Source of the DNA: a virus | IMG/VR virus record: IMGVR_UViG_3300007512_000217 | Location: 1-22,823 of that record | DNA: 22,823 nucleotides | Direction: 5' to 3' (one strand) | Part shown: positions 1,840-22,823 of the stretch, piece after piece | Position numbering within the stretch: position 1 is the first letter of the stretch | How the letters are laid out: each line of letters begins with the position of its first letter | Translations under genes and position numbers: made by a program | The notes under the pieces: model-generated | The model's database searches: none | Told to the model about the DNA's origin: nothing | Seen by the model: the letters and a program-made list of their open reading frames with translations, nothing else

Positions 1840-2247
1840 TTAGCTTGTTTGTTCTTTTTGAAAGTATACACCGATCAAGTCACTTTCAACTAAGTTAATA
1901 CTGCCACCATTACTCGTATTGTGGATAACTATAAAATCATCTCCAATATGGAAATCGGTTGGTGCAGTGATTGTTGTTTGGTTTGTATGAGATAAATAAT
2001 AAACCCCATTAACAATGACCAAAATTGATCCATTTCTTATTGTTTCCCCTGTATTTAAAGATATCATAAACTTGTCTCCAAAAGAATCTGAAATCTTATT
2101 AGTAACTAGTAGTCTTTCAAAATATTGTGCGTTTTCAATTACTAAGTCGTCAATACGAGACTCTAAAATAGCATCATTATTATTCCATGTTACTCGGCCT
2201 TGATTAAAATCATCGCTAGTTTCAACTGTATTTACTCTGTCGGGCAT
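1840..2247 (-). CDS. Small beta-rich virion protein, fibre module
   Basis: A 135-residue protein of no family I recognise. Residues 1-45 contain a polar helical segment (NNNDAILESRIDDLVIENAQY), followed by alternating hydrophobic strands (ETIRNGSILVIVNGVYYLSH and DFHIGDDFIVIHNTSNGG). Such a helix plus beta layout is common in small fibre-base or baseplate proteins. Its ATG overlaps the TAA of the preceding gene (TAATG at 2245-2249), implying translational coupling with the FN3/zinc-ribbon protein. The next gene begins 20 bases downstream. Confidence 0.65.
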   Translation of the reverse strand: MPDRVNTVETSDDFNQGRVTWNNNDAILESRIDDLVIENAQYFERLLVTNKISDSFGDKFMISLNTGETIRNGSILVIVNGVYYLSHTNQTTITAPTDFHIGDDFIVIHNTSNGGSINLVESDLIGVYFQKEQTS

Positions 2248-3035
2248 TACTGTAAATTAACCTCGTATACTTCATCCTCTAGAGAAATTTTACTTGCTTG
2301 AATAATCTGCTCTATAACAAACCCATATACTTCCTTAGTTCTAATGGACTTTACCATTCAACGTGTGTTGCGCTCATCAACCACCACATCTTTTATCTGA
2401 AGAGGCGGGTAATTTAAAGTAGTGATCATAGTATCTGAAGGGCGTCAGTCTCCAAACATATTAATTTGATTATACTTTGGAGAAGGTGTTACAAGAGCTT
2501 TAAAAGTAATTGGATCAAAATACCCATCTATCCAACCTGTTCCATCACATACATCACAATCATCATATTTAATTCGGTATAAAGTTTCATCCCAACACTC
2601 TGTACAGTGTTGGCCTCAAGAGCGTCTTTTTAAAAGCGTTAAAGTTCTGCCAGAATGCTTTTCAAGTACAAGTTTTTTACGTCTGATAATTTCTCTATGA
2701 TGCTTATTTGTAGTAAGATCTTGTAAATATACTGGAGGCTCTGGGTAAACTTCTGACTCACCTGTGGAAGTATGCTTTACTTTAAACTTGTAATACCACA
2801 ATCTATCTGGGTGATGTAATCCAGATAAAGTCGTATCAGAATAGGAATATGCAGTAGAAGAAACGCCTGAAGCTACTAAATCGTACTCAGAAATATTAGA
2901 GCTAGGTGCTTCACACCTATACACATCTATACTATAATCGGAAAAAGTTTCACTAGGGGAAGATTCGAATGACCAAGTAAGATCTAAACTATCTGGATTA
3001 TATGAGTGTACATCTAAAGTCTCAAGAACTATCAT
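2247..3035 (-). CDS. FN3-like/zinc-ribbon virion protein, probable neck or tail-junction protein (three TGA=Trp codons)
   Basis: Read with TGA=Trp this is a 262-residue protein; with the standard code it would stop after 139 residues. Residues about 5-105 resemble a fibronectin type III domain (LDLTWSFESSPSETFSDYSI, later LWYYKFKVKHTSTGES). A basic linker leads to a four-Cys zinc ribbon, C144-x2-C147 and C160-x2-C163 followed by DGTGWIDGYF. The last 100 residues are mixed alpha/beta. TGA codons are at 2616-2618 (residue 140, RRSW), 2445-2447 (residue 197, FGDWRPS) and 2358-2360 (residue 226, NTRWMVKSI). I recall similar 'CxxCWD...CxxCxGTGxxGGY' proteins in structural modules of other large phages, but cannot name a family with certainty. 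Its place between an adaptor-like protein and fibre proteins suggests the neck or tail attachment region. Confidence 0.8.
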
Positions 3036-3042
3036 GACACTC

Positions 3043-3543
3043 TTACCAGATTATATCATCATTGTTGGAAAGGAGTCCGTACTCGGACCCAACTCCGCCA
3101 TACGCATCATCTACGTTACTACCTAGTTTCAAAGCTTGTAGCCCACGAACATACTTATTGATAAGTACGTTATAATAGTTAATATACCTTCCGTACTTAT
3201 CCATGTCCTGAACTGTTACTCCCCCGCCGTCATTATAAGTGAGAGTGTTTCTGGAAGATATTATTCCTTTAGAAGTTAGTACTTGTAAAACAGCCCCATA
3301 CTTCAATAAATTTCAGCTGGGGACTTCAGAAAATTTTAACCAGTTTGTTGCCGGTAGAAACTCATAGTTCATTTCGTCCAAAGCATCTTGAAGAAAATGA
3401 TATAGCTCAATGTCTGTAGACTCTTTTGTCTGGTCTAAAACATTTAAAGCTTCTGTGTCTCCTAACCATGTACGTAGTCGATTAACATATAATTGATCCT
3501 CAAAAGGGATCATATCTAACATTAGCTGCTGTCTATTAGGCAT
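3043..3543 (-). CDS. Probable head-tail adaptor or neck protein (one TGA=Trp codon)
   Basis: A 166-residue protein when TGA at 3313-3315 is read as Trp77 (EVPSWNLLKYGAVL). The two halves are in the same frame and no start codon with a ribosome site exists for the second half. It is mostly helical: an acidic N-terminal half (FEDQLYVNRLRTWLGD; DIELYHFLQDALDEMNYEF) and a Tyr-rich C-terminal half (DMDKYGRYINYYNVLINKY) ending in a glycine-rich tail. Size, helix content and position just after the capsid operon fit head-tail connector proteins, but this is inference. GGAGG lies 9 bases before the ATG at 3543. The start overlaps the end of the preceding gene by 8 bases. Confidence 0.75.
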
Positions 3544-3913
3544 TGTCGTAATCCTCCAGAATAACTATAGTTACTCCTCCATTAGTGGGGACTGTGAGTT
3601 TATCACTATTTGTATAAGTTATTTGGAACTCTCCTAGAAAAGCTCCTGCGGTGTTAGTATCACTACTGACTCATGAATACCTAAGGCGTCCATCTGACCC
3701 ATTGGCATTATTACTATCTGCAGCTGGTAGTAAGGTAATATTAGAACTAGTGTTCACCTTTATAGAGGATCCTTCTGCACTTATCATAGTAAACTTAACT
3801 TCTTGAATTTCTGGTCCACTGAGGTCTATCGGAGACCCATCAACCCCGTATAATACAACATCCAAAAAAGGTCTTGTATCATTTCGTTTCATATATATTG
3901 TACTCGTGGCCAT
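3536..3913 (-). CDS. BppU-like N-terminal domain protein, baseplate/fibre (one TGA=Trp codon)
   Basis: A 125-residue protein. The whole length fits the beta-sandwich domain at the N-terminus of phage baseplate upper proteins (BppU-like): an initial 'IYMKRNDTRPFLDVVLY' strand, 'DGSPIDLSG', a strand 'EVKFTMIS', then the typical closing motif 'G-x-L-R-Y-x-W-x-x-x-D-T-x-x-x-G-x-F-x-G-E-F' and a final 'VTIVILED' strand. The Trp of this closing motif (residue 81) is encoded by TGA at 3671-3673, one of the best arguments that TGA is Trp here. With the standard code the protein would lose its last third. GAGGA lies before the ATG at 3913. It ends in TAA, overlapping the next gene by 8 bases. Baseplate or fibre-anchor function is inferred from the domain. 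Confidence 0.8.
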
Positions 3914-3929
3914 AACTTTTCCTCTATAC

Positions 3930-4217
3930 CTAAATACTTGTGATAGTAGTTTGTTTACTTTCGACTTCTAGTTCAGTTTCTAAAGTATCTAATAACTCTA
4001 AGCGAGCAGCTACTATACTACCTACCTCTATTTCCATGGCTTTATAATTATCTATCGGAAATATTCCAAAGACAAGTTCACCAAAAGTCATATCAGCAAA
4101 ATCGGAGCTGAACGAAAGAGAGCTTCCTCAGCCCCCCTCTGGAGATATAGGGAATACTTGTGGGTCTTCTCCCATATCACGAATTATTTGTAAGTAGTTG
4201 TCCGGTAGCTGTAGCAT
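3930..4217 (-). CDS. Small unknown protein, first gene of neck/fibre unit (one TGA=Trp codon)
   Basis: A 95-residue protein that appears only when TGA at 4128-4130 is read as Trp30 (PEGGWGSSLSF). It begins MLQLPDNYLQIIRDMGED and has an acidic, helical C-terminal half (VAARLELLDTLETELEVESK). No family is recognised. It fills the otherwise empty stretch between the capsid terminator and the BppU-like gene, has a 96-codon frame ending in TAG, and starts only six bases after a consensus -10 box, so its mRNA is probably leaderless. A later ATG at 4175 (residue 15) is the alternative start. Its position as first gene after the capsid suggests a connector or completion protein, but the sequence gives no proof. 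Confidence 0.7.
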
Positions 4218-4223
4218 CAATTA

Positions 4224-4252
4224 AATATACTCGAAATAAATCCTATAGTCAA
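4224..4252 (-). promoter_or_regulatory. Sigma-70-type promoter for neck/fibre genes
   Basis: Reading the minus strand, TTGACT (4252-4247) is followed after 17 bases by TATATT (4229-4224). Element match and spacing are close to ideal for sigma-70. The expected transcription start, about seven bases past the -10 box, falls on or next to the A of the ATG at 4217. It lies immediately after the capsid terminator. Confidence 0.85.
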
Positions 4253-4255
4253 GAT

Positions 4256-4289
4256 AAAAATAAAAAAGGGGCGCCCGAAGACACCCCTT
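4256..4289 (-). terminator. Rho-independent terminator after the major capsid gene
   Basis: On the minus strand a 10-bp stem (4289-4280 with 4275-4266; AAGGGGTGTC pairing with GGCGCCCCTT, two G-U pairs) closes a TTCG tetraloop bounded by C-G, an exceptionally stable loop in RNA. It runs into TTTTTTATTTTT. It is 35 bases past the capsid stop codon. Confidence 0.93.
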
Positions 4290-4323
4290 AAATTACACCT
4301 TATATGCTAAGTAAGCTAATCGA

Positions 4324-5247
4324 TTAAGATTTAGCTAAACTAATTTTAGCACAAGCGTCAGTATTACCAATACCGATACCTAAAGTTTCGTAAGCAGCAA
4401 AAGAAATAACATTCTTTTTCTTTTCAATCCAGAATTTTGTATCATTCAAGACATTAAAGTTACCTAAGAACTCTTGGCCAGCAAAAGCATACATGTAATG
4501 GTTTGAACCATCAGATAACAAATCAACTTTGTTTGAAACAATTAACTTACGGCCAAACAATGAAGAGTAAGAATATCCATTTACGGACATTTCAGCACCC
4601 ACTGCATCACCAACAGTTGTTGCATCCCACATGAAGAGTTTGTTAAACATTACTGTAGACATAAGAATAGTCTCAGCTCTTAACTCACTACCATCAAGTG
4701 TGTTAAACAAGGTTTCGAAAATATCTTTCTTAAACGCACCAGAAGCTTGCCAATCGCCGTTAGCGAAAGATGTGTTATTGCTTGAAGCAGTAACTGCAGC
4801 ATCTACTGTTGCGATGAAGTTTTTATCTTCGATTTTTTGAATATCTTTAACGCTGTTACGTTCAATTACTTCCGTAAGAGGCATCTCATATGCCAATAAT
4901 TCTTCTTCAGTTTTTTGGAAATCTTCTGAAGAGATCATGTAGAAAGGAATTTCGTAACGTTCGCCTTGCAAATAGTTTGCAGTAGGCTGTCCGCGAAAGT
5001 TAACAGTCATAGCCTTTGAATCTGGCTCGATGTCAACGATACGTACTAAACCATCATGATTTACAGAACGTTGTAAATCGGCTTTTGTCACATATTCAGG
5101 TTGAATTACTTTACGTGCGAAAGAAACTTCGCGTAGTTTTTGTCTGATAAAAGCAGACCCTTCCATTGCAACTTTTTCAAGTCCTTCAGAAGAGTTAAGC
5201 TTCTGAACAAACAATTCATTAATTGTACTTGCAGAAATATTACTCAT
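4324..5247 (-). CDS. Major capsid protein (HK97 fold)
   Basis: A 307-residue protein that should form the icosahedral shell. The N-terminal part contains the series typical of a large family of phage capsid proteins: 'FIRQKLREVSFARKVI', 'ADLQRSVNHDG', 'VDIEPDSKAMTVNFRGQP', 'ERYEIPFYMISSEDF' and 'AYEMPLTEVIERNSVKDIQ'. The C-terminal part (about 170-300) is the A-domain-like region with 'GRKLIVSNKVDLL' and 'LGIGIGNTDACAKISL'. AGGAG lies before the ATG at 5247 and the gene is followed by a strong terminator. An 'EGLEKVAMEGS' stretch at residues 21-31 resembles the N-terminal motif seen in many neighbouring proteins and could be near a maturation-cleavage site. No TGA codon occurs in it; it ends in TAA. 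Confidence 0.92.
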   Translation of the reverse strand: MSNISASTINELFVQKLNSSEGLEKVAMEGSAFIRQKLREVSFARKVIQPEYVTKADLQRSVNHDGLVRIVDIEPDSKAMTVNFRGQPTANYLQGERYEIPFYMISSEDFQKTEEELLAYEMPLTEVIERNSVKDIQKIEDKNFIATVDAAVTASSNNTSFANGDWQASGAFKKDIFETLFNTLDGSELRAETILMSTVMFNKLFMWDATTVGDAVGAEMSVNGYSYSSLFGRKLIVSNKVDLLSDGSNHYMYAFAGQEFLGNFNVLNDTKFWIEKKKNVISFAAYETLGIGIGNTDACAKISLAKS

Positions 5248-5263
5248 TATTATACTCTCCTAA

Positions 5264-5635: not shown

Positions 5636-5656
5636 TTTGTGTCCTCCAAATGTTCA

Positions 5657-5992: not shown

Positions 5993-6451
5993 TTAGATAC
6001 CCATCTGCGGCACGCGTCCGCGTTTTAAGCCCTCAACAAAAAAATTTGCTGCAATTTGTTTCCTCTGTTCACGGTCAATACGCTCGTCATATTGGTGAAC
6101 CAGCATTCCTCCACCGATTGCTCCAGCTGAAGCAGCTAAAGCGCCTGATATTAGTTTGCCAATTGATCCAGGTTTCCCCTTCTCAATTTTGTTAGCTTTC
6201 GCTAAAAGTTTCTGTGTTTTATCATTTAATTTTGCCGCTTCATGAGCTCGTTGTGCACTTCGTAATGCTTTTTTAGCTTTTCATGTTTGGCCAAACACAC
6301 CTGTTTTCTCAATAGATGCTTGATCAGCTTCTATTAAATAGCTCGCGACTTTTTCTATATCATTTATAGAATAATTTGCAAACCTAGCAGACAAAAAATT
6401 ATCTGCTAGGTCTACATATTTATTTAAAATAGCGTAAGCTAATTTATCCAC
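5993..6451 (-). CDS. Small head-cluster protein with Gly/Ala-rich hydrophobic segment (one TGA=Trp codon)
   Basis: A 152-residue protein when TGA at 6281-6283 is read as Trp57 (FGQTWKAKKALRSAQRAHE). I place the start at GTG 6451, five bases after the TAA of the preceding gene, because the resulting start (VDKLAYAILNKYVDLADNFL) resembles the tandem-helix start of the adjacent paralogue-like proteins; a longer frame from ATG 6505 would overlap the preceding gene by 50 bases. Residues 40-100 are basic and helical. Near 101-122 is a Gly/Ala-rich hydrophobic helix (LISGALAASAGAIGGGMLV), followed by an Arg/Glu-rich stretch. No family is recognised. Virion membrane-interacting or internal head function is conceivable. 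Confidence 0.7.
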
Positions 6452-6455
6452 TGAA

Positions 6456-6794
6456 TTACTGTTCGTCAGTTTCGTCTGGCAAATTAGTTGCCAATTCTTC
6501 AACAAAAGAACGTGCCATAACCTGGCCAGCTTCTACGTATTCAGCAATTTTATCCATTGACTCTTCTTCTTCAATGTCTGCATCTAACATATAAGCAGCA
6601 AGTTTTACAACATCTTCTTCAGTGTAATCATTATCATATTCTTCAGCTAAGATTACGTCTGCAGCTTCTGCATATTTAGCAATAACTTCAACACGTTCAG
6701 CTACAACTGCTTCAGCTTCTTTTTGCATAGCTTCTTCAGCTGCTGCTTCTTCAGCTTTAGTATTCATATTTTCGTAAGTTTCTAGAAGTCCCAT
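6456..6794 (-). CDS. Acidic scaffold-like protein, shares C-terminal motif with upstream gene
   Basis: A 112-residue, strongly acidic helical protein (AEEAAAEEAMQKEAEAVVAE near the start). Near residue 90-105 it carries 'EAGQVMARSFVEELA', nearly the same as 'AQGRVMARAFMDELQ' in the preceding gene, so the two are probably related by duplication or both bind one partner through this helix. Position between maturation protease and capsid, acidity and helix content all fit a scaffold or prohead-core protein, which is inference. AGGA precedes the ATG at 6794, two bases past the preceding stop. No Trp and no Cys are present. Confidence 0.7.
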   Translation of the reverse strand: MGLLETYENMNTKAEEAAAEEAMQKEAEAVVAERVEVIAKYAEAADVILAEEYDNDYTEEDVVKLAAYMLDADIEEEESMDKIAEYVEAGQVMARSFVEELATNLPDETDEQ

Positions 6795-6796
6795 TA

Positions 6797-7498
6797 TTAT
6801 TCCTCCCCAAAGTAAGCGTTATAAAGAGTGCCTAAGATACGTTCTTCAGACGTTTCTTCAGCTTCAGCTGTCTTTTCTTCTTCAGCTTCAACCGCAGCTT
6901 CGCCACCTACTGGAGCGTTTTTATCTGGATTTCCGTCTACTGCAGTGGATCCAAAAGTCTCATCAACTGCTTTATTAGGAGCAGGCATAATAACACCATC
7001 AGCTTGTACATAAGAACCTTGTGCAGCTGCTTCATATTCACGAAGTTTATTGATAACTGCATCAGCTTTACCAGCTTCAGGTACATCACCTGTAACTAGT
7101 TCAACAGGTTTCTTGCTCATATCAGCTGAATGCCCTGTGTAAACACCAGTAGCTACTGCAACTTTTTGAAGTTCGTCCATGAAAGCTCTGGCCATTACTC
7201 GTCCTTGTGCGTCGTATTCAGCGGCTAGTTTTTCAGTTTCTTCTTCAGCTTCTTCAGTTGCTTCTTCAGTTGCTTCTTCAGCTACTTTTTCTTCTTCAGC
7301 TTCTTCAGTTGCTTCTTCAGTTGCTTCTTCAGTTACTTCTTCAGTTGCTTCTTCAGCTACTTTTTCTTCTTCAGCGTCTTCAGTTGCTTCTTCAGTTGCT
7401 TCTTCAGTTGCTTCTTCAGCAATACCGTCAGCAAATTTAGCTTCAGCTGTTTTCTCAGCTTCCAAAGACTTTAAAATTTCATCTATGTTAAGTCCCAT
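6797..7498 (-). CDS. Glu-rich repeat protein, probable prohead scaffold/core
   Basis: A 233-residue, extremely acidic protein. Residues about 25-95 consist of 'TEEA' and 'EEKVAEEATEE' repeats. At 100-115 is 'AQGRVMARAFMDELQKVAVA', a helix shared with the next gene. The remainder is a Pro/Gly-containing region ending in a second acidic stretch and 'ERILGTLYNAYFGEE', a possible capsid-binding C-terminal helix as found in scaffolding proteins. It lies directly after the maturation protease, the classical scaffold position. The Shine-Dalgarno site (GAGGA) lies inside the protease stop region, so the two are probably translated together. Scaffold function is inferred; an acidic internal head protein is the alternative. 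Confidence 0.72.
   Translation of the reverse strand: MGLNIDEILKSLEAEKTAEAKFADGIAEEATEEATEEATEDAEEEKVAEEATEEVTEEATEEATEEAEEEKVAEEATEEATEEAEEETEKLAAEYDAQGRVMARAFMDELQKVAVATGVYTGHSADMSKKPVELVTGDVPEAGKADAVINKLREYEAAAQGSYVQADGVIMPAPNKAVDETFGSTAVDGNPDKNAPVGGEAAVEAEEEKTAEAEETSEERILGTLYNAYFGEE
7234..7422 (-). repeat. Degenerate 12-bp repeats coding TEEA/AEEE units
   Basis: Plus-strand units of the type cttcttcagttg recur many times across this stretch, with interspersed variants (agctactttttcttcttcag twice). They encode the Glu-rich repeat of the scaffold-like protein. Such repeats expand and contract easily. Confidence 0.85.
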
Positions 7499-7501
7499 AA
7501 T

Positions 7502-9277
7502 TTATTCCTCGATTAGTTCGTTATATAACTTGTTTAGAGATTTATTATCCATTTGAGATAATAATTCAGCTCTTTTAATTAGACGTAACCCACTTGATGC
7601 GAGTCCACTCAACCCTAAAGCTGTTAAAAACGGATGTTTACGGAGAAAATCATTTGTTTTTGTGATAGCTTTTCCACGTCTAACATCTGCTTCTGCCTTT
7701 CCAGCAGCAAGATAGCTCACAGGAATCGACACTAAAAGTGATGGAGCAAAAGCTCCGGCTGACTTTTGAAATGACGATTCTTGCAAAGCCAGAGAACCTA
7801 AGGTTCCGGCTCCTACTACTAATGGCATCAGCCACGGGTATTTTTTCACAAGTTTAAAAAATCCAGATAAATTCTTCTTATCCATCATTTTTGCGTAACC
7901 TGTGTAAGCAGCTCCCAATCCCGCTAATGGTAGTAAGGGGGATTTATGTGGGCTTAATAAAGGCTCTGGAGTATGTCCAAAAACCATTTTCTTTAATTGG
8001 CTGGGTTCAGCTTCAATTTGCTTGTCCCATCCAACATCGGTTTCAGATTTTGGCAAAATTCCATGCTTTCTTAACAACTCTAAAAGAGCCTCTTTGTCTT
8101 TTTCGTCCATTGACCCAATAGCTACTTCAAAATCCTCGAGAGGATCTTCTGATGCAACTTTTTCAAGTACTCTGGACACCACCAGTGGTTTTGTTAGGCT
8201 CATTTTTAAGACCGAGTCACCTAACACCCCTGCTACCTTCTCATTAAAATGCTCATAGCTAACAGAAGATAGTTCCACACCTGTATTTTCAGGAGAAAAT
8301 ACTATATGCTGTCTATCTAATTCATCAGCCAACTCACGTTTTCCAACAGAATAAAGAGCTAATTTTTGAAAATCATCACGTCTAGGCATAATTCTTAACC
8401 CTAAAAAAGTAGACATTACTTCTTCTAAAGGAAATTGAGATAATTTTTCAATTTCTTTTTTATCAAGTCTAGCTTGACTAGCATAAACTAGGTCTTTAGG
8501 GTCTTTAGAAAGGGCACTGAGATCAGCGGGAACATCAATTTTTTTCTTAATGTCTGCATTACTTTCGAATGCACTTTCTTTTAAAGCCTCAGCAAGTTCT
8601 GCACTAGACGTCACAGCCTCTTCTTCTGCACTGGCTAACTTAGCAAGAAAGCCTGCAGTACTGTCGGCAGGGATTGTTACAACGCTGAGGTCAAAGAATT
8701 TTGGTCTTGTATTAATGGCAAACACACGCCGGCCATCATCAAGAACACGGTTCATTTTAGTTTTTAAGTGTGCACAATATTGTCTTAAAGTTTTAGCTTT
8801 ATTACCGCACACCGAACATACATCATAAGGAACTTTACAGCCCATAGATACAGCTGGTAAATGTCCCTCATTTAATTTTTCAATGACTGGAGAAGCTTTA
8901 GAATCATCTAATTCTAAAACAAGTTCTACTCTATTCATTCCTGGATTAAAATGAGAAAAAACAACTCGTCCCATAGCTTTGCGAGGATCTTTATTCACAT
9001 GATGCTTATAGACGTGTCCATTCGCTTCAAAAGTTTTATGATACTCACGAAGTGCTTTATGGGGGAAGTAATCTCCATTTCTATTGGAGCCATAGAACTC
9101 GCCAGCAGACATAGCATTCACTAATGCATATGTTTTCTTAGCTTTACGTTCTAAGCTATCAATAAATTCTCTAATATCTTCTGAATACTCAGCAACCTTG
9201 TTGTGATGGTCAGAATCAATGAGAGTGAATACTTCGGAGTCATGATCCCCGTAGTGATACTCTAGAATTTTATCCAT
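7502..9277 (-). CDS. Capsid maturation (prohead) protease with zinc-finger-like insert and hydrophobic C-terminal domain
   Basis: A 591-residue protein. Residues about 50-210 match the serine protease that processes phage proheads: 'GDYFPHKALREYHKTF', His92/His93 in 'VYKHHVNKDP', 'GRVVFSHFNPGMNRVELVLE', and Ser144 in 'LPAVSMGCKV' as probable nucleophile, then 'RPKFFDLSVVTIPAD'. Between Ser144 and the last motif is a Cys/His cluster (C147, C154, C157, C168, H170) that looks like a metal site. Residues 210-440 are helical and may act as scaffold or core. The last 130 residues hold several hydrophobic segments (LLPLAGLGAAYTGYA; YPWLMPLVVGAGTLGSLALQ; APSLLVSIPVSYLAAG; HPFLTALGLSGLASSGLRL), unusual for a prohead protease. 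It lies two genes after the terminase and just before scaffold-like genes. Active-site residues are assigned by analogy, not alignment. Confidence 0.82.
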   Translation of the reverse strand: MDKILEYHYGDHDSEVFTLIDSDHHNKVAEYSEDIREFIDSLERKAKKTYALVNAMSAGEFYGSNRNGDYFPHKALREYHKTFEANGHVYKHHVNKDPRKAMGRVVFSHFNPGMNRVELVLELDDSKASPVIEKLNEGHLPAVSMGCKVPYDVCSVCGNKAKTLRQYCAHLKTKMNRVLDDGRRVFAINTRPKFFDLSVVTIPADSTAGFLAKLASAEEEAVTSSAELAEALKESAFESNADIKKKIDVPADLSALSKDPKDLVYASQARLDKKEIEKLSQFPLEEVMSTFLGLRIMPRRDDFQKLALYSVGKRELADELDRQHIVFSPENTGVELSSVSYEHFNEKVAGVLGDSVLKMSLTKPLVVSRVLEKVASEDPLEDFEVAIGSMDEKDKEALLELLRKHGILPKSETDVGWDKQIEAEPSQLKKMVFGHTPEPLLSPHKSPLLPLAGLGAAYTGYAKMMDKKNLSGFFKLVKKYPWLMPLVVGAGTLGSLALQESSFQKSAGAFAPSLLVSIPVSYLAAGKAEADVRRGKAITKTNDFLRKHPFLTALGLSGLASSGLRLIKRAELLSQMDNKSLNKLYNELIEE

Positions 9278-10882: not shown

Positions 10883-12430
10883 CTAAAAGCTTTGAAAGTT
10901 CCCCATCTTATGATAAAGGTCCCCTGCTAAAGCTGCGAATAAGGTCGCATGATAAAAATCATCTGGGCCTGTGTTAATATAACGCATTACATTAGTATCT
11001 TCATTATAATCTATTTGGATATTTAAAATGTCTTGCATAAAAGTATCTGTATTATCATCCCATTTTGGGAGAATTATATTGCCTTTTTCAAAGTCAGAGA
11101 AGAAATTAGCCATTACCTGTGTTCTGTTTAAAGTGTATGCAGGTAGTTTGGCATTCCATCTTACCAATTCTTTTTGATTAGGCAGGTGCTGAAAAGATAT
11201 TACCTTTTCAACTCCCAGTCTTTTTCTAAACTCCGAATTAGATGCCTCTCCCATTCCATAGTCTGATGCAATATGAGTGCAATTCCATTTCTTAAATAGT
11301 TCAGGAATATCATCATGAATAAATGAGTACTCGGCTTGTTTTCCCATATATTTTTTAGCATATAAAATTCTAGGTATTCCATTTTCCATACGAACAATAC
11401 TAATAGTCGTGAATGACTTTTCAGAATTTACAGGTCCATAGTCAATTCCTAAAAAGCAAGGTTGCTGTTTATCATACTCAGTAGGTTCCGCACTCATTTC
11501 CCCTCCTGTACAGACTTCCCTCAATTGGTCCTTCGTAATAGGGGTTATTCCAGCATCATAAGAAAGAGCTAATGTTTCATTATAAAAAAGCGCTTTTGAT
11601 TGTCTTTCTCGTTTGTCTATTATATCTCGTTTCCAGTCTACCCAAGGAGCGTCATGAAAGTGGAGTAAACACACTCTAAATCCTTCTAGTTCAGGGCCTT
11701 TACTTCCTGTCGATACCCATTGGCCTCTCTTAGCCGACAATTCTCCTCCACATTTTTTACATATTAGTCCATTTAAACCTATATTATCCTCGTCAAGAAG
11801 ATTCCATTTACCACAATGTTCACATTTAGGCATCCATTCATTTTTACTAGAGTCTTCCCACCTATCTGCCAAAGGTCCTCTGGAGCGTTTCGGAGTTCCT
11901 ACATACATACTATACTTGTACTCCGATCTACTCATTGTTTCCTCAATAACACCAATGTTGTCTTCCATTTGATCCTGCATCTCATCAAAAAGGTTCATGT
12001 CCGCTGAGTACCCTCTAATTCTATCAGCATCTAAATAAGCATAGCGTAAATACATGCGAGAGCCATTTAATAACTGCTTCATAAATACGTTTTGTACAAT
12101 TGATGGGCTTAGGTAGTGCTTTTTAACAAAAGGACTACTATCCATAATTGGTGCTACTCTGTCATGTGAAAAAACTTTTGTCTGATCCACTGAAGGTGAA
12201 ATATACAGTGTCTTAAAGTAAGGTGTTAGTATACTATTAGTCACCATCATATTAGCCAGTGTAGTAGACTTAGCAGTTTGTCGACTAAATTGTAAAACAA
12301 TTTTAGGATGATCTAAATTATAAATTGCCCTTAGATGTGGGTAGTCATCTAGTGACAATATTTTTCCATTTAAGTGCAAAAAACTTTCTGCAAAGTCACT
12401 TTTTGCGAGTTCTATAACTCGTTTATCCAT
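10883..12430 (-). CDS. terL: Terminase large subunit (DNA-packaging ATPase/nuclease)
   Basis: A 515-residue motor protein that pumps DNA into the prohead and cuts it. The ATPase half has a Walker A variant at about 48-57 (FSRQTAKSTT), and Walker B at 146-150 ending in D149-E150 (MNLFDE), with 'GTPKRSRG' near 178-185 as coupling region. A four-Cys zinc ribbon follows: C203-x2-C206 and C224-x2-C227. The nuclease half has the acidic residues of the RNase H-like fold: D330 (FLGIDYGP), D390 (HIASDYGMG) and D491/D504 (DDFYHATLFAALAGD). GAGG precedes the ATG at 12430, nine bases after bS21. It contains no TGA codon; all its Trp are TGG. It ends in TAG. No small terminase subunit is recognised beside it. 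Confidence 0.95.
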   Translation of the reverse strand: MDKRVIELAKSDFAESFLHLNGKILSLDDYPHLRAIYNLDHPKIVLQFSRQTAKSTTLANMMVTNSILTPYFKTLYISPSVDQTKVFSHDRVAPIMDSSPFVKKHYLSPSIVQNVFMKQLLNGSRMYLRYAYLDADRIRGYSADMNLFDEMQDQMEDNIGVIEETMSRSEYKYSMYVGTPKRSRGPLADRWEDSSKNEWMPKCEHCGKWNLLDEDNIGLNGLICKKCGGELSAKRGQWVSTGSKGPELEGFRVCLLHFHDAPWVDWKRDIIDKRERQSKALFYNETLALSYDAGITPITKDQLREVCTGGEMSAEPTEYDKQQPCFLGIDYGPVNSEKSFTTISIVRMENGIPRILYAKKYMGKQAEYSFIHDDIPELFKKWNCTHIASDYGMGEASNSEFRKRLGVEKVISFQHLPNQKELVRWNAKLPAYTLNRTQVMANFFSDFEKGNIILPKWDDNTDTFMQDILNIQIDYNEDTNVMRYINTGPDDFYHATLFAALAGDLYHKMGNFQSF

Positions 12431-12439
12431 TAAGACCTC

Positions 12440-12640
12440 TTATCGACTTTGTGCGTGTCGTATTAAAGACGGCTTCACATAATACTTTCGCTTACGAAGC
12501 TGGTCCATTATACCTGCTCTATCTACTCGTCTAGATAGTCGACGTAATGCGTCTTCAACATTTCCGTCATGTACATACACTTTTAAGCCCTCGTCCCTAG
12601 GCCCGTCGTGCTTTTTCTTCTTATGATAATTTTTTCTCAC
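12440..12640 (-). CDS. rpsU: Ribosomal protein bS21 homologue
   Basis: A 66-residue basic protein. From residue 18 on it matches bacterial small-subunit protein S21: 'LKVYVHDGNVEDALRRLSRR', then 'DRAGIMDQLRKRKYYVKPS', corresponding to the family's 'VALRRFKRxxEKAGxxxExRxRxxYEKP' core. Residues 2-17 are an additional Lys/His-rich N-terminus. In bacteria bS21 sits beside the anti-Shine-Dalgarno region of 16S rRNA and affects initiation. Phage copies are known from large environmental phages and are proposed to steer host ribosomes toward viral mRNA. The start is GTG at 12640, 20 bases inside the upstream gene; no ATG is available in frame. It lies directly before the terminase. The long C-terminal arm of E. 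coli bS21 is missing. Confidence 0.9.
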   Translation of the reverse strand: MRKNYHKKKKHDGPRDEGLKVYVHDGNVEDALRRLSRRVDRAGIMDQLRKRKYYVKPSLIRHAQSR

Positions 12641-14021
12641 TATGTCTTAATGATTTTAAGGCCTCCATGACTCCGCCATAGGGCCCATGTTCAACTGATT
12701 TGTACTTTATATTTCTAAAACTTCTTCTAGGATTTCCCCAGCCCCAGCTATAAGGCAGGTCTCTTCCTCTATGGACCTGAAATTCCATATCCTTTAGTTG
12801 TTTTAAATCTTCTTTGATCTCTAGAACTTTTTGTGCTCTTTGGAATCCTTTTAATTTGGTTAAGTCTTGATTATCTTTATAAAACTCTTCAGCGAGTCTA
12901 GAAAATCTACGCTTAAACAAGTTCGCTGATGCTATCTCAGTTCTAAACTCATGTTCAGGATCTCTGATAGTATCGGGTGTAGTTGTCGTAAATACTTTTC
13001 AATCGTCTTTAAATATATCATATACACCGTAAGGGTAATTTCTATATTTTACGTCCGGATAATAAGGCTTCACAAAAAAATTAATGGGGTGTGCTCCGTC
13101 AACAGAGAGCTCTCCATTAACTGCTCGAGTTCTTAGGTGTAGCGCATTTGCTGCCTCTTCCGAAATACTTTCATCCACGATTAAATTAATATCTATATCA
13201 GAATGAGGGGTATATTTATACCCTGTGATAGAACCTAATATCATAGCTCTGTCAAGCCATTCCAGCGGGCAAATATTATCTTTAATAATGAACAATATTT
13301 GTTGCCTAAGTTCAGGACGTAATTTAAGGTTTTCTTCTCAAACGTCTTTAGCTAAATGTTTTTTTGGTGTATCTAAAATACCTGCTTCTTTGTTTAAATC
13401 ATTAACAACATTTTTTAAGTAAATTTTAGTGTCGTTTTCTACGTTAGGGGTTCACTTATTTACAGCTTCTCCTAACGTTAGGTTACGTTTCGAATCTATC
13501 TGAATCTGTCTGATTCCTGCTGACCTTCCGTCCTTTAAATCTTTAAACACCGCAAATCCCTTAGGTCCCTTTACTGCTCCTTTTTGTCCTACGAACTTTA
13601 GGTTATGTGGGTTATTATTCCTAGTGGCTAAAGTGTCTGACTTGCCATGCCCTTCCCACTTACCTATAATTCTACTTAACTGTGCACTATTAATAGTCTT
13701 TAGAGGAGTCGTCTCTGTAATTAACTTTTTCTTAAGTTTTGTATTCCAGTGGGCGTTAATAGTTCCTGCAGTACTCTGCTTTTTATTTTTAGAAGGTGTT
13801 TTAGTGTTTATATAGTCACGTCCGCGTTCGGAAGTTTCTAATGATGGGTGTTGTGAAAACACTCTATGCGAATACACTACATTGTTTCTCTCCTTCATAA
13901 TTTGAAGCAGTCTTTTCTTACGTTCTCGCTCTTTACGTCTCTTTTTTTCCTCAGCTGTTTCAGCTTCTTTTAAAAGACGCTCTACTTCAATATTAAACGC
14001 TATTTTAGTAATAATATCCAT
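12621..14021 (-). CDS. Fusion of NPGN-type lysozyme-like domain and nucleotidyltransferase-like domain (three TGA=Trp codons)
   Basis: Read with TGA=Trp this is one 466-residue protein; the standard code breaks it into four pieces. Residues 15-45 are a Lys/Arg/Glu-rich helix. Residues about 115-215 match the peptidoglycan-degrading 'NNPGNLR' domain of virion-associated lysins: E123 in 'GKWEGHG', 'NNNPHNLKFVGQKGA', 'GFAVFKDLKDG', 'LTLGEAVNKW' and 'TPNVENDTKIYL'. The Trp of 'NKWTP' (TGA 13452-13454, residue 190) is the conserved Trp of this family. Residues about 243-345 carry the nucleotidyltransferase signature G263-S264 plus D275-x-D277 (LGSITGYKYTPHSDIDINLI); the third acidic residue appears to be Asn in 'HPINFFV'. 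Other TGA codons are residue 228 (13338-13340) and 341 (12999-13001, FKDDWKVF). The C-terminal 120 residues are basic and helical. Activity of the second domain is uncertain. Confidence 0.82.
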
Positions 14022-14026: not shown

Positions 14027-14593
14027 CTACTTCAGCTTTTCTTTTATATAAGTCTTAGCAGTACTATAGTTCTCTTTAATTGCTGCTTTTAATTTTCTTT
14101 GGTCACCGGGTATAAATCCTTGATTACCTTTAATATAATCCTTGGTGTACTTTTTACCATCGTTAGCGTAAGTCTTAGCTCTGCTATACAAGGATACGGC
14201 TCGATCCGCTATTGTGGGATTAGGTTTAGTGTATCTTTTTGGGAGCTTATACCCCGTTATCGTAATATTAGGGTCAGATTGCGCAGCATATACGCTGTCT
14301 GGGAAAGAAAAAGTACTGGCAGGGTTTCGATACTGATCTTTTGGCCTAATCTTACCGGTAGTTGAATTATACCAATTATACCTCTGCTTACGTTGGTTTT
14401 TACCTACTCGAGTAGATTCTGAAAGCTCTAGAGTGTAATTAGCGGGGTCGGGTAGCGTAGGTTTGGGAGTTACTGTAAACTCTTTTTTTACTCGTTTCTT
14501 TAGCTTGCTCTGATTTCCAGGTAATCATCCTTCATTACCTTTTATATAATCAATAATATTTGAACATTTTACAAAGCCTAATTTTTTTAACAT
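14027..14593 (-). CDS. Basic protein with duplicated 'YIKGNxG[W/F]xPG' motif (one TGA=Trp codon)
   Basis: This 188-residue gene is visible only with TGA=Trp at 14525-14527 (residue 23); otherwise 576 bases appear empty. It starts MLKKLGFVKCSN, the recurrent 'KLGFVK' N-terminus. A motif near the start, 'YIKGNEGWLPGNQSKLKKRV', recurs near the end as 'YIKGNQGFIPGDQRKLKAAI'; the TGA-encoded residue of the first copy aligns with Phe in the second, which favours an aromatic residue at TGA. The middle is Pro/Thr/Tyr-rich and basic. No family is recognised. GGAG lies nine bases before the ATG, overlapping the end of the preceding gene. It ends in TAG five bases before the next ATG. Confidence 0.8.
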
Positions 14594-14597
14594 GTGC

Positions 14598-15419
14598 CTA
14601 TTCTCCATTTAAATCATCAATATGGGGGATTTCTGTCTTCTCACTACTGTCCTGCTCTTTTAATTTAAATTCAATTGCTTCAAAGATGCTTTCATTATCA
14701 GTATTCTCTTGAATTATTCTGTCCACTCGATCAGCTAACTTGACAGCTAGTGATCCCCACTTCTGTGCAAGATCGGGATCTACTCGTGAGCGCTCTTTAA
14801 AGTTATAGTATGAATCTGATAACATATCTCTTAACATATTATCAAACGATTTATCAGGTGCTGCCCCTAATTTCCAAAGAAGGTAATCTTTATCTCCCTG
14901 TAAAGCAATTCTATAAAACTTTTTAATTGTACTGTCTGTTACAGAATCCACTAATTTTTTACGTTCTGCTACATTAAGACCTGCAATATCGAAAAAGTAT
15001 TTAAGAAACATTTCAATGTTATCATGAGAGTATTCAACATTATACTTACCATTAACTATTAACTCAATATCCTCGGAGGTAATTCTCGCTATAGCTAGGC
15101 TGGTAATAAGTCGAAACATAAGTGGATCATCTAAAAGTTTAAAAGCGCCTTTAATTGACTCAATATCGTCTCCGGTGTATACGTCAAATACATACCCAAA
15201 CATTTCAGATATTCCCCAGTCTTTTAGCCATTGTACTTCTACAGAAACTTTTTTATCTTTAAAGTAATCTGGTTGTTCATCAGACATTTCTTCATGGATC
15301 TTCTGGACACCAGGTAACGGAAAAGACAAATTAACTTTTTCTAAACGAGTTAAAATTTCCGCAGGCTCTAGTCTTCCTGCAACTAATGTTCTTACGTATC
15401 TTTCGTGTGGTATTTTCAT
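14598..15419 (-). CDS. Unknown helical protein
   Basis: A 273-residue acidic, helical protein starting MKIPHERYVRTLVAGRLEP. Notable segments are 'LKDWGISEMFGYVFDVYTGD', 'MFLKYFFDIAGLNVAERKKL' and an acidic C-terminus 'SSEKTEIPHIDDLNGE'. I recognise no catalytic motif, no signal peptide and no membrane segment. Its ATG overlaps the stop of the 3'-phosphoesterase gene (TAATG at 15417-15421), so the two are probably co-translated and may act together. It ends in TAG. A structural, packaging-associated or regulatory role are all possible. Confidence 0.7.
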   Translation of the reverse strand: MKIPHERYVRTLVAGRLEPAEILTRLEKVNLSFPLPGVQKIHEEMSDEQPDYFKDKKVSVEVQWLKDWGISEMFGYVFDVYTGDDIESIKGAFKLLDDPLMFRLITSLAIARITSEDIELIVNGKYNVEYSHDNIEMFLKYFFDIAGLNVAERKKLVDSVTDSTIKKFYRIALQGDKDYLLWKLGAAPDKSFDNMLRDMLSDSYYNFKERSRVDPDLAQKWGSLAVKLADRVDRIIQENTDNESIFEAIEFKLKEQDSSEKTEIPHIDDLNGE

Positions 15420-18544: not shown

Positions 18545-19267
18545 CTAATCTTCCTCATACGATTCGAGTATCTTTGTGACTAAAGAATGTCGAACTATAT
18601 CTTCTCTTGTGAACTTAACTACCCTTATTCTATCGTCTTTATCTTCAAGTCGGTGGACCGCATCAGTAAGTCCGCTAACCTTATCGGTAGTGTCCTGTTG
18701 TCTCTCGTCTCCTGCTACAATTATGTGCGAATTTTTTCCTAGCCTGGATAAAAATAATTTAACCTGTGTGGGGCTAGTGTTTTGTGCCTCGTCTAGAATT
18801 GCGACGCAATTTTCAAGCGTTATACCTCTCATGTACGCTAGAGGTAATACTTCAATAGTCTTATCCTTTACCATAATATCGGCGACTGTTTTGGTAGCGA
18901 TCTTTTGTATATTCATATAAAATGAAAACATAAATGGATCAGTCTTCTCTTCTACAGTCCCAGGTAAAAATCCAAGCTTTTCTCCCGCTTCAACGATAGG
19001 TTTAGTTAGATATATCTTTTTTATCTTCCTATCCTTATCTTTTAAGACCATTAGTGCTGCTAACGCAGCAATATACGTCTTACCAGTCCCAGCGGGACCA
19101 GTTGCAAAAGTTAAAGGGTTTTTAACTATCGAGTTATATAACTCTTCTTGCCGCCAAGTTCAAAAATCTGGGGTAATCCTAACATTTCTTAAGTTATTAA
19201 TACCCGCTGAGTTTCTCCCCTTTTTTGCATGTAAATCTTTTACGTTTCTTTTCTTCTTTTTGCTCAT
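18545..19267 (-). CDS. phoH: PhoH-family ATPase (one TGA=Trp codon)
   Basis: A 240-residue protein starting at ATG 19267 (MSKKKKRNVKDLHAKKGRNS), with AAGGA about ten bases upstream. Walker A is at 57-64 (GPAGTGKT), then 'IYLTKPIVEAGEKLGFLPGT', 'EVLPLAYMRGITLENCVAIL', Walker B with 'DEAQN', and 'GDERQQD', all classical PhoH features. The C-terminus 'VRHSLVTKILESYEED' also fits. TGA at 19160-19162 is Trp36 (ITPDFWTWRQEEL); with standard code the only open stretch starts after the Walker A motif, which would make a dead protein. PhoH is frequent in phages; the true function (RNA-related ATPase or helicase) remains debated. Ends in TAG, directly before a promoter. Confidence 0.93.
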
Positions 19268-19283
19268 GTATAAATAATCCTTG

Positions 19284-19320
19284 GTTAGTTAATATGTAAG
19301 GTGAACCTAAATTAACTAAC
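19284..19320 (-). promoter_or_regulatory. Inverted repeat in the phoH leader
   Basis: GTTAGTTAAT (19320-19311) and ATTAACTAAC (19293-19284) on the minus strand form a perfect 10-bp stem around a 17-base loop that itself contains AGGTTCACCT. The stem ends about four bases before the AAGGA ribosome site of phoH. There is no T-tract, so it is not a usual terminator. It could be a binding site for a dimeric protein or an mRNA structure. Confidence 0.6.
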
Positions 19321-19323
19321 GGA

Positions 19324-20136: not shown

Positions 20137-20138
20137 AA

Positions 20139-20399
20139 TTACTCTCCTGTCTTATAATTGGGGGCAAGTACTTTCTTACCACTATTCATAAATTGTGTGG
20201 TAGTCTGATTTTTAGGTATGTTTACTCCTACAGACTTACCTGATGCAATTCGTTTTTGAGAAGGGGACCCATACATCTTCCAAGCCGTTCGTTTCACAAA
20301 ACCTAGGTTCTTAGAATTATAGCTAGTTCCTTCTGGAACTTTAGGAGGAGCTCCTAAATCAAGTCCAATTTTTTCAAAGCCTAAATCTTTTAAAGTCAT
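20139..20399 (-). CDS. Small basic protein with 'LGFxKI' N-terminus
   Basis: An 86-residue basic protein starting MTLKDLGFEKIGLDLG; a second 'NLGFVKRTAW' occurs at about 31-40, so the motif is present twice. The remainder is Lys/Ser/Thr/Asn-rich with no predicted hydrophobic core, consistent with a flexible or nucleic-acid-associated protein. No family is recognised. The ATG follows the upstream TAA by one base (TAATATG). Confidence 0.62.
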   Translation of the reverse strand: MTLKDLGFEKIGLDLGAPPKVPEGTSYNSKNLGFVKRTAWKMYGSPSQKRIASGKSVGVNIPKNQTTTQFMNSGKKVLAPNYKTGE

Positions 20400-20400
20400 A

Positions 20401-20820
20401 TTACTTACCCTTCTTCTTAGTTAGCCTTTTCTCTGCTTCCACCAATGCTTGTGGATATATCTTTCCACTACTAACAAATTTAGTTGAGTCTGAAGAATGC
20501 ATTTTATATAATTCTTCAGTAGGCATAGTTATTTTGTTGAGTGTCTTAACACTAAGTTCTCGTAAAGTGTCATCCTTTACTTCAGTTCCAAACACGCCCG
20601 CTATGAGCGGTGCATGCTTCTCTTTTAATTGTTCCACTGCTACACTTTTTAACTTAGACCCTACAAAAGGTACATCTTGTACAGCCTGTATCTTCTTAGC
20701 TCCTGCTACAGTTTTAGGATGCTTAGATCCAACTAAAGCCAGTTTATTAGAAACCACGTCCACTAATGTGGGTGTTTCCTCTGCTATTTTTGTGAAACCT
20801 AGTTTTTTAAATATAATCAT
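20401..20820 (-). CDS. Small protein with 'KKLGFTKIAEE' N-terminus
   Basis: A 139-residue protein starting MIIFKKLGFTKIAEETPTLV, one of the best examples of the shared N-terminal motif. The body is helical and Lys/Val-rich ('AVQDVPFVGSKLKSVAVEQL', 'KTLNKITMPTEELYKMH') and ends KRLTKKKGK. No family is recognised. It begins two bases after the stop of the preceding gene (TAATTATG) and is not preceded by a good Shine-Dalgarno site. Confidence 0.65.
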   Translation of the reverse strand: MIIFKKLGFTKIAEETPTLVDVVSNKLALVGSKHPKTVAGAKKIQAVQDVPFVGSKLKSVAVEQLKEKHAPLIAGVFGTEVKDDTLRELSVKTLNKITMPTEELYKMHSSDSTKFVSSGKIYPQALVEAEKRLTKKKGK

Positions 20821-20822
20821 AA

Positions 20823-21329
20823 TTAAAATCTCATTTTAAGTGATAGTCGCCCCCAATCGCCTTTCCCTTTTGGAAAGTTGTATTGAAATGACGTCCTATT
20901 ATAGTTGCCTTTGCCTTTTTTGTGGTAGGAAATTTTCCGACTTGTTACAGCTTCGATAGCTTGTCTAAGTTTAGGGTTGTTTCGCGCTGCAAAATAAGCT
21001 GTTGGTGCAGCTACTGCTGTAGCTAGTGCTCCTTTAGGATTTTCCTTAACAATATTAGTGACTTCTTTTACCCTATCTTTAAAATAATTTTTCACGTCTC
21101 CGTGAGTCTTTTTATATTTACTCACATCTTTAAAAACAGCCTCCACTGGCTTTTCCCATACAGGAGGGTTATCTTTTTTAGTCATCAAAGATTTATTGAT
21201 GTTTAACATCGAAGACCTCGCTACTTCTGGTATTTTTACAGGGCCAGGTTTAAGCGCCATAGAAGATGACGAAGACATCATAGTCTCCTCACCTTTTGCT
21301 AATTTTATAAATCCTAGTTCTCTAAACAT
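20823..21329 (-). CDS. Basic protein with 'ELGFIKLA' N-terminus and Ala-rich hydrophobic segment
   Basis: A 168-residue basic protein starting MFRELGFIKLAKGEE. A Ser-rich stretch follows ('TMMSSSSSMALKPG'), then helices, and an Ala-rich segment at about 113-131 (KGALATAVAAPTAYFAARNN). The C-terminus is aromatic and basic ('KGNYNRTSFQYNFPKGKGDW'), ending in LSLKMRF, a hydrophobic/aromatic C-terminal end. No family is recognised. The 88 bases upstream of its ATG hold no convincing promoter or larger gene. Confidence 0.65.
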   Translation of the reverse strand: MFRELGFIKLAKGEETMMSSSSSMALKPGPVKIPEVARSSMLNINKSLMTKKDNPPVWEKPVEAVFKDVSKYKKTHGDVKNYFKDRVKEVTNIVKENPKGALATAVAAPTAYFAARNNPKLRQAIEAVTSRKISYHKKGKGNYNRTSFQYNFPKGKGDWGRLSLKMRF

Positions 21330-21417
21330 TATCTATAAAGATCCATATTGTCTACTGTAATTCACCTAGTAATTCTATCTTCAGTCCACCAGACATATTA
21401 ATAAAGTTAATAATTTA

Positions 21418-22140
21418 CTACCTTTTTTTAGCACTGTTAAAAAATCTATTTACTGTTTTCATATGATCTCTAGCTGCAGCTGATTCAGATGCACCTGTGG
21501 TCTTAGTACCACTGCCTGTAGTAAGCGTATTATTCCATTTACGAGTCGTAGTAGGAGTTTTCATTTTGTTATCCTTACCCACATAAGCAAGGGTATGCTT
21601 AATTTCCTTAATGGTCTGATCCGCATGCCTAGAAGTATCAGAAAACGCTGTTACTCGACCCGCATCTAACTCTCTTAATAAATGAGCTGCGTCAAATTTA
21701 GGATATTTCTTAGGGCTATTACCATAAGAGGTCAAAACATGGCCTACCACTTTTTGTTTGTGGTCGCCTTCTACCCTAGGTGTACTATGTCTCGATTTAA
21801 TGACTTTAGTCGCTCTCTCTATTGAGTCGTCTTCTGCTAATTTTACAAAGCCTAATTTTTTTAAATTCATGTTAATGTCTCCATCATCTAAACGTGTTCT
21901 AATATAAGAACGCTCTTTATCAAATAACTCTAGTTGCTTACTAGCTGGTTTAGCTGGTTTAATTGGCTTGTCTGTTGTGGGTATTGCTGTAATTTTCTTC
22001 TTTGTGTTTGTCGGGGTGAAAAAACGTGCCGGGATATTATCAGTCTTACGAGCTATACTGGCTTTTAAAACGGCCTGCTGCCGAGTATACTTTTTTGCAT
22101 ACATCAAATGACCTATATATCTCTGGATGGGAGTTCTCAT
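21418..22140 (-). CDS. Unknown basic protein with a second in-frame start
   Basis: A 240-residue basic frame. Residues 1-90 (MRTPIQRYIGHLMYAKKYTR... to ...RTRLDDGDIN) are Lys/Thr/Pro-rich. At residue 91 (ATG at 21870) the sequence reads MNLKKLGFVKLAEDD, exactly the N-terminal signature of neighbouring genes, and has its own GGAG site eight bases upstream. A second, 150-residue product from the inner start is therefore likely. The outer ATG at 22140 also has a good GGGAG site at seven bases. The C-terminal part is His/Lys/Thr-rich and helical, ending 'DHMKTVNRFFNSAKKR'. No family is recognised. It ends in TAG. Confidence 0.68.
   Translation of the reverse strand: MRTPIQRYIGHLMYAKKYTRQQAVLKASIARKTDNIPARFFTPTNTKKKITAIPTTDKPIKPAKPASKQLELFDKERSYIRTRLDDGDINMNLKKLGFVKLAEDDSIERATKVIKSRHSTPRVEGDHKQKVVGHVLTSYGNSPKKYPKFDAAHLLRELDAGRVTAFSDTSRHADQTIKEIKHTLAYVGKDNKMKTPTTTRKWNNTLTTGSGTKTTGASESAAARDHMKTVNRFFNSAKKR
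21868..21882 (-). promoter_or_regulatory. Internal ribosome binding site and start codon
   Basis: GGAG at 21882-21879 is followed after eight bases by ATG at 21870-21868, in frame with the longer 240-residue gene. It would give a 150-residue protein beginning with the recurrent MNLKKLGFVKLAE signature. Confidence 0.65.
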
Positions 22141-22197
22141 TTACATACTCCCTAAATACTCCCTATTGTTATTCCGAAGGTATTACTAATTGGTGTT

Positions 22198-22823
22198 TTA
22201 ATCTTCATTATGAAGTGGACAAACATGCCCATGGTATTCCATTCTATCAAGATCACCATTTAAAGATTGTAAAGTTCTTTCACCATCTAAAATTGTATCA
22301 TGAAAAGCTACTGTAAATAAATCTAAAATTGCCGCTAATCTAGATGTGTTACTTACATAAAATTGACTTGAGCAAATAGCTTTTATCCCTTCTACTACAA
22401 TTTTAACTCTAGATTGATGCCAATAATTAAATTTTTCCACTATAAGGTCAGGAATGCCGTTAAGCTTCGCCCTCTCTTCGTATTCAACTACACAATCCAT
22501 TACAAGTGTTATTAATTCATCTTTTAATTCATTAGGGTGTCGCTTTTCTCAAGCTTTCTTATCCATTACATATGACATTAAAATGTCTCTGCAACACTCG
22601 AATTTTATACGTAAAAAATCAGAGAAAACTGCTCGCCTAAATGGATCCGTGAACGGAATATGTTTAATATCATATCGCATCCATGCGTCCATTCTAAGAA
22701 AAAAAGTATGGTAAGATAAAGGATAGGCTTTTCGATACTGCGCTAAGCGCGCTGTAAGGAATTTGTAAGCCGGTCTCCTAAAATACCATAAAAGCAATAA
22801 CGCTAGGAGTATTCCGCCGGGAA
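22198..22823 (-). CDS. Membrane-anchored unknown protein, C-terminal part (one TGA=Trp codon; runs off right edge)
   Basis: The frame is open to the window edge and gives about 207 visible residues, so the start is outside or at a near-edge alternative codon (TTG at 22797). The visible N-terminus is a hydrophobic segment (PGGILLALLLLWYF) followed by basic residues (RRPAYKFLTARLAQYRKAYP), the pattern of an N-terminal membrane anchor with the following part in the cytoplasm. The rest is helical and charged with an aromatic-rich stretch. TGA at 22549-22551 is Trp (MDKKAWEKRHPNEL), joining two open stretches that are in the same frame. The C-terminus has 'MEYHGHVCPLHNED', a possible single Cys/His metal-binding cluster. 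No family is recognised. It ends in TAA. Confidence 0.72.

Follow-up and report, generated by a model that had tools for sequence, protein, structure and literature searches.

Thirteen in-frame TGA codons lie within nine genes of the IMG/VR virus record IMGVR_UViG_3300007512_000217, and they raise the question of how this phage reads UGA, and by means of which transfer RNA (tRNA). The stretch analyzed here (hereafter the window) comprises 22,823 bases with a G+C content of 0.377. Under code 4, its minus strand is a near-unbroken run of genes that encode a major capsid protein, a terminase, an endolysin/tail-type protein, PhoH and many unknown proteins, together with one protein similar to a head-maturation protease; the window derives from a large phage and belongs to its late (structural) region. 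We found that most of these TGAs sit at tryptophan (Trp) columns, and that TGA-using relatives of the window carry a UCA-anticodon tRNA with a second, CCA-bearing anticodon arm.

An initial sequence-only reading had located the thirteen TGAs, estimated about 70 TGG codons, and reported no gene ending in TGA. Each TGA is at the coordinate claimed, TGG codons number exactly 70, and the 31 complete genes stop at TAA (22) or TAG (9) and never at TGA. The lack of TGA ends is partly circular because the gene list was itself built under code 4; given 12–17% TGA ends in code-11 relatives, it corresponds to a p of about 0.02–0.003. Coding coverage by open reading frames (ORFs) of at least 150 amino acids rose from 0.60 under code 11 to 0.78 under code 4, while a control in which TAG was taken as sense gave 0.67.

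Homologues from relatives gathered through terminase, PhoH and capsid searches were then aligned to the TGA sites. Trp occupied 151 of 195 cells in the TGA columns (77%), 23 of them encoded by TGA, followed by Phe/Tyr in 26 cells (13%); every other residue occurred at most four times. The window's own TGG columns, serving as a control, gave 59% Trp and 20% Phe/Tyr, hence the TGA columns look just as Trp columns should. Nine of the thirteen sites had at least three aligned homologues, and Trp was the commonest residue at all nine. The aromatic preference expected by the sequence-only reading was therefore present, and Trp is the sole meaning that fits the homologue columns, which carry no Gly, Cys or Ser signal. 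Code 25 (UGA as Gly) does not fit, with Gly in 0 of 195 cells. We consider the reading of UGA as Trp beside UGG in the window to be well supported by these comparisons of sequence.

Site by site, the evidence from aligned homologues came mainly from six genes, all on the minus strand. In the late gene at 2247..3035, Trp was found in 13 of 29 homologues at position 2616 (Tyr/Phe in 12), 17 of 28 at 2445 (Phe in 6) and 27 of 28 at 2358, and a phrog_2806 match covers two of these sites. The late gene at 3043..3543 has its TGA at 3313 (23 of 32 homologues have Trp and 3 have Phe/Tyr), that at 3536..3913 at 3671 within the motif RYSWxxSDT (Trp in 13/13), and that at 3930..4220 at 4128 (Trp in 7/7, two of these by TGA). 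Two of the three TGAs of the endolysin/tail-type gene (12621..14021; phrog_873), at 13338 and 12999, align with Trp in 23 of 26 and 26 of 26 homologues, respectively. Lastly, the PhoH-like ATPase gene (18545..19267; PF02562, 9.5e-66) has its TGA at 19160, upstream of the Walker A motif; a phrog_170 match (residues 1–239) covers the site, and the contigs L005 and L006 have a TGG-coded Trp in this column. The code-11 ORF starts at 19051 (residue 73), past the motif, thus PhoH indeed retains Walker A only if UGA is read through, as had been proposed. The genes for the major capsid protein (4324..5247, minus strand; phrog_2522) and the terminase large subunit (10883..12430, minus strand; phrog_675, E-value 2.5e-65) are free of TGA in the window; in relatives, the terminase large subunit has TGA at Trp columns.

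As a separate observation, an LKKLGFVKLA-like motif recurs near the start of five otherwise unrelated genes of the window (14027–14608, 20139–20399, 20401–20820, 20823–21329 and 21418–22140), and may be a capsid-targeting leader cleaved by the prohead protease.

Which tRNA might read these codons? ARAGORN found no tRNA in the 22.8 kb of the window, and a covariance model likewise gave no UCA tRNA there. In two of three large relatives (G006, G007 and G008, also G6, G7 and G8; 205–210 kb each), namely G006 and G008, the plus strand carries a UCA-anticodon gene, labeled tRNA-SeC by ARAGORN, that occupies the space separating a small gene from an Amidase_2 endolysin gene; G006 also has a holin gene directly before the small gene. 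G007 has the UCA tRNA at the same place, where ARAGORN overlooked it. Including further relatives obtained via an actin-like gene just downstream of the tRNA, six lineages have a UCA tRNA ahead of the amidase gene, on the late strand, and all six use TGA. The code-11 lineages L196 and L210 have the same gap but no UCA tRNA, whereas one is present in all TGA-using relatives with sequence coverage of the lysis cassette. With the covariance model, UCA tRNAs scoring at least 55 bits were found in TGA users only, whose next best matches were tRNA-Trp(CCA); the code-11 relatives G001, G002, G011, G012, G015, G067 and G071 scored at most 44 bits. The sequence-only reading had named a UCA tRNA, a tryptophanyl-tRNA synthetase (TrpRS) and a release factor as candidates to look for. 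Only the first was recovered, in relatives and in an unexpectedly two-armed form; TrpRS (PF00579, TIGR00233) and release factor (PF00472) were each found in 0 of 42 related or tRNA-bearing records. Their absence does not exclude membership among the code-4 phages, since only some members encode a TrpRS or an RF1-type release factor and since the window covers its genome only in part. Judging from its family, the genome to which the window belongs probably carries a UCA tRNA as well.

Several other features were seen around these tRNAs. The actin-like gene belongs to the Volactin family and lies close to the lysis cassette (L151:12744-13724). TGA-using relatives (L148-L180) have sets of about 25–30 tRNAs plus a transfer-messenger RNA, and two of them have amber (CTA) tRNAs (L153:5393-5469 and L161:15365-15439, both minus strand). 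Recoding of TAG, which CTA tRNAs in G6 and G7 had suggested, was rejected, since TAG seldom occurs at conserved sense columns and the residue there is inconsistent.

Upon a closer inspection of the UCA tRNAs, we noted that in all family copies the long arm that follows the anticodon arm and precedes the T arm bears a UCCAA loop. The loop usually has 7 nt (GUCCAAA, CUCCAAA or UUCCAAA) and equals the anticodon loop of tRNA-Trp(CCA). Instead of the single arm and short variable loop of a class I tRNA-Trp(UCA), these molecules thus have a second arm of 4–7 bp with an xUCCAAx loop. A pattern scan of IMG/VR that required the UCCAA loop returned 79 places, 75 cloverleafs and 57 distinct tRNAs. Because this pattern itself demands the loop, we ran a second scan that required only U72 and G73; among the matches listed, UCCAA was in the arm of 29 of 30 distinct cloverleafs. 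With the register picked to maximize pairing, the second-arm stem was 97% paired, against 50% when halves were shuffled among tRNAs, and all pair types were present. In a MAFFT alignment, 4 of 4 stem pairs showed changes in both bases. When the UCA arm was excised in silico, ARAGORN called tRNA-Trp(CCA) in 51 of 60 cases, while the same excision from ordinary Ser, Leu and Tyr tRNAs left a callable tRNA in 12 of 95; the spacing to the T arm became the normal 4 nt in 48 of 58. The acceptor end is Trp-like, with A1-U72 in 45 of 57, G1-U72 in 10 of 57 and G73 in 56 of 57 tRNAs. Given the call as tRNA-Trp(CCA) after excision and the normal spacing, the molecule is a tRNA-Trp(CCA) that holds one more anticodon arm, bearing UCA, between the D arm and the CCA arm. 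A recent duplication of the first arm as the source of the second was also considered but is not supported, as stem likeness was 0.43 both within and between tRNAs.

In bacteria, Trp identity lies chiefly in G73, the anticodon bases and the first acceptor pair (PMC9976931). It is therefore not obvious how a phage UCA tRNA stays acceptable to the host TrpRS: the CCA anticodon is itself a main identity element, hence a plain change from CCA to UCA is expected to weaken charging by the host. Code-4 phages can carry their own TrpRS (PMC10746230). We propose that, late in infection, UGA is probably read by an opal tRNA which the phage itself provides. The UCA arm would sit in the decoding position and read UGA, while the CCA arm, at the position of a long variable arm, would keep the tRNA chargeable by the host TrpRS, together with G73 and A1-U72. 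Offering CCA to the synthetase and UCA to the ribosome would be a way round weakened charging that needs no phage synthetase. Because the tRNA would appear only with late transcription, late genes could hold UGA while other genes would avoid it in frame, and a few of the latter would still end in UGA. Taken as a whole, we consider this explanation likely.

The alternative that fares best concerns the purpose of the CCA arm, which might not serve TrpRS at all but be a structural leftover, allow dual reading of UGG and UGA, or shield the tRNA from host nucleases. With the CCA arm as anticodon arm, the rest of the molecule is a normal tRNA-Trp, including the 4-nt variable loop seen in most copies. 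On the other hand, UCCAA is retained in all but one of the cloverleafs listed from the loop-free scan while the stems vary by compensatory change, which points to selection acting on the anticodon-like loop as such. The loop, G73 and the first acceptor pair are also the very elements that make up the main bacterial Trp identity, and no phage TrpRS was found in the records searched. We therefore regard a role other than charging as possible, though somewhat doubtful.

Alternatively, the host itself might read UGA as Trp, being a Mycoplasma-like or other code-4 bacterium, with the tRNA a mere accessory. There are indeed code-4 phages whose hosts use code 4 too (PMC11210395). Three lines of evidence nevertheless make this unlikely. 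First, UGA use is divided within single genomes. Counting homology-spanned TGAs, with one coding frame retained per place, the plus strands of G006, G007 and G008 have 90, 90 and 33 sense TGAs (213 in total), while the minus strands have 1, 1 and 0 (2 in total) against 284, 263 and 155 TGGs (Fisher p of 2e-36, 2e-29 and 3e-10, respectively). The plus strand holds capsid, tail and lysis genes and, judging from this content, is probably late-transcribed; the minus strand holds the tRNA cluster. Mixed TGG/TGA use is thus a feature of late genes, as the sequence-only reading had it, with recoded TGAs almost confined to the late-gene strand in all three. TGA ends 4 of 65, 0 of 58 and 5 of 38 minus-strand genes in G006, G007 and G008, so UGA there is mostly avoided rather than used as a stop. 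An apparently heavy use of UGA stops on the early strand was discarded, because the split by coding potential had overstated it and the homology-based version shows avoidance.

Second, standard-code close relatives occur throughout the same tree. In a tree of 56 capsid proteins labeled by TGA use, where labels are counts in aligned regions and are therefore uncertain for short contigs, the sister of the window is L013 (support 99/96), in which TGA makes up 22 of 35 Trp codons, whereas its closest neighbors after L013, namely L007, L008 and L015, do without TGA. On well-supported branches there are at least five changes of label, and seven on the best tree; the capsid tree cannot separate gain of TGA use from loss. 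As a side observation, L004 has large in-frame insertions in its terminase (6463-9129; 888 amino acids vs 516) and in a protease-like gene (11110-13980; 956 vs 591), which are perhaps inteins.

Third, a scan of a genome collection gave 20 cloverleafs, 15 ordinary tRNA-Sec-like and five of the phage class, and a tRNA of the two-armed class occurs in a prophage of Bacteroides neonati MS4, 27 bases before the Terminase_4 (terS) gene. The TerL gene comes next, and has an in-frame TGA within its ATPase domain match. Bacteroides has the standard genetic code, hence the reading of UGA there is the phage's own and not that of its host. A transposase-like gene stands right behind the shortened TerL (L364:267-1556), and this prophage may be damaged.

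At 56 loci around two-armed tRNAs, mostly outside the window's family, long-ORF coverage rose from 0.40 with code 11 to 0.61 with code 4, and the TAG read-through control gave 0.43; by the same measure, code-11 relatives of the window gave 0.78, 0.82 and 0.81. A blastn search of deposited phages with five two-armed tRNAs returned mainly ordinary tRNA-Trp and tRNA-Ser and no confirmed two-armed tRNA in a cultured phage, the top metagenomic matches not having been gone through singly. OLE and ROOL large RNAs were seen amid the tRNA arrays of phages with two-armed tRNAs (L294:5822-6158, L290:5210-5602 and L305:1356-1973).

It is very unlikely that UGA is decoded not by the UCA tRNA but by an altered tRNA-Trp(CCA), whether through an anticodon stem of 4 bp, as known from Blastocrithidia, or through a Hirsh-type change in the D arm. 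Mechanisms of this type are known (PMC13092985), and G6, G7 and G8 each encode a tRNA-Trp(CCA). By eye, however, the anticodon stems in G6 and G8 have 5 bp and G6 retains an ordinary G24 D arm, while that of G7 has one A-C mismatch at 31-39. Moreover, the code-11 relative G015 has a tRNA-Trp(CCA) too, whereas the fully cognate UCA tRNA is found in TGA users only.

Even less credible is a UCA tRNA charged with serine, or a selenocysteine tRNA (tRNA-Sec). ARAGORN labels 54 intact tRNAs as tRNA-SeC, the Rfam tRNA-Sec model is barely above threshold for two, and a long variable arm with G73 is a feature of Ser identity (PMC9976931). Against this, Trp fills the TGA columns and neither Ser nor Cys gives a signal there, the acceptor stem has 7 bp with an A-U or G-U first pair (55/57) rather than the G1-C72 of true cellular tRNA-Sec, and a tRNA-Trp remains once the UCA arm is removed. 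Sequencing or assembly errors, or decayed genes, are a negligible explanation even for a single metagenomic contig, given 13 sites in Trp-specific columns, frames open to the end, and independent contigs that likewise have TGA at these Trp columns.

Several observations nevertheless weigh against the two-armed tRNA as the reader of UGA in the window, or against parts of that proposal. The sites at 6281, 13452, 14525 and 22549 have at most one aligned homologue each. PHROG matches span two of them: that of phrog_873 (residues 127–209) covers 13452, and that of phrog_18926 (32–200) covers 22549 in the gene at 22198..22821 (minus strand), whose one homologue has Tyr. The other two rest on an open frame and, for 14525, on an internal repeat: the gene at 14027..14608 (minus strand; 0 homologues aligned) has YIKGNEG[W]LPG at the TGA and YIKGNQGFIPG as second copy. 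The weakest is 6281, in a minus-strand gene with an uncertain start (5993..6505), where the single aligned homologue has His. The window is a fragment, so its own decoder would lie outside the observed sequence, and we found no contig of the lineage of the window and L013 with a lysis cassette. The empty gap was seen directly in two code-11 lineages only. One tRNA type, that of G007, has an odd T loop, GGCGGTA, though it is otherwise intact (L159:16163-16261, L194:3470-3568). Outside the window's family, TGA is not confined to one strand, accounting for 649 of 1587 Trp codons on the tRNA strand and 154 of 299 on the other. Lastly, as far as sequence can tell, the arm entering the ribosome could be UCA or CCA.

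UGA as Trp in phages, its late-gene bias and suppressor tRNAs are already known. Recoded phages with code 4 or code 15 (Borges et al., 2022, as summarized in PMC10746230 and PMC11210395) share with the window's family UGA as Trp in late or structural genes, a phage UCA suppressor tRNA, and an alternative code in standard-code hosts. They differ in that the 42 records searched here yielded no phage TrpRS or release factor, and in that our suppressor is two-armed and, in the window's family, lies in a late lysis cassette. The class I tRNA-Trp(UCA) of code-4 bacteria and mitochondria has the UCA anticodon and the Trp acceptor end (A1-U72, G73) in common with it; unlike class I, ours keeps a complete CCA-loop arm on the T-arm side of the UCA arm. 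tRNA-Sec and allo-tRNAs (PMC7609411) also have a UCA anticodon, a long arm before the T arm and the software label tRNA-SeC, but not the 7-bp acceptor stem, A1-U72 or G1-U72, UCCAA loop and Trp columns seen here. The tRNA-Trp(CCA) with a 4-bp stem (PMC13092985) is another route to UGA as Trp; the tRNA-Trp(CCA) of G6 and G8 have normal stems of 5 bp, and a UCA tRNA occurs beside them. Theta-ribozyme-linked suppressor tRNAs of gut phages (PMC10879173) are likewise used against standard-code hosts; unlike in those phages, no theta ribozyme scored above the Rfam threshold at nine of our tRNA loci. A tRNA with two anticodon arms was not described in the open-access literature we searched.

We hold as evenly balanced the broader proposal that these molecules form a widespread class of phage tRNAs, in which charging (CCA loop) and decoding (UCA loop) are split between arms and which would allow a late code switch with no phage synthetase. 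An opal suppressor tRNA was reported in only 11 of 73 predicted code-4 phages, many others of which infect code-4 hosts (PMC11210395), and the labeling of two-armed tRNAs as SeC may be part of the reason for this low count; tRNA-SeC calls in phages may thus be opal suppressors, and should be taken with caution. If true, the division of charging and decoding over two arms would be a new tRNA architecture, and could serve as a naturally occurring model of stop-codon suppression and help in working out when phages switch code.

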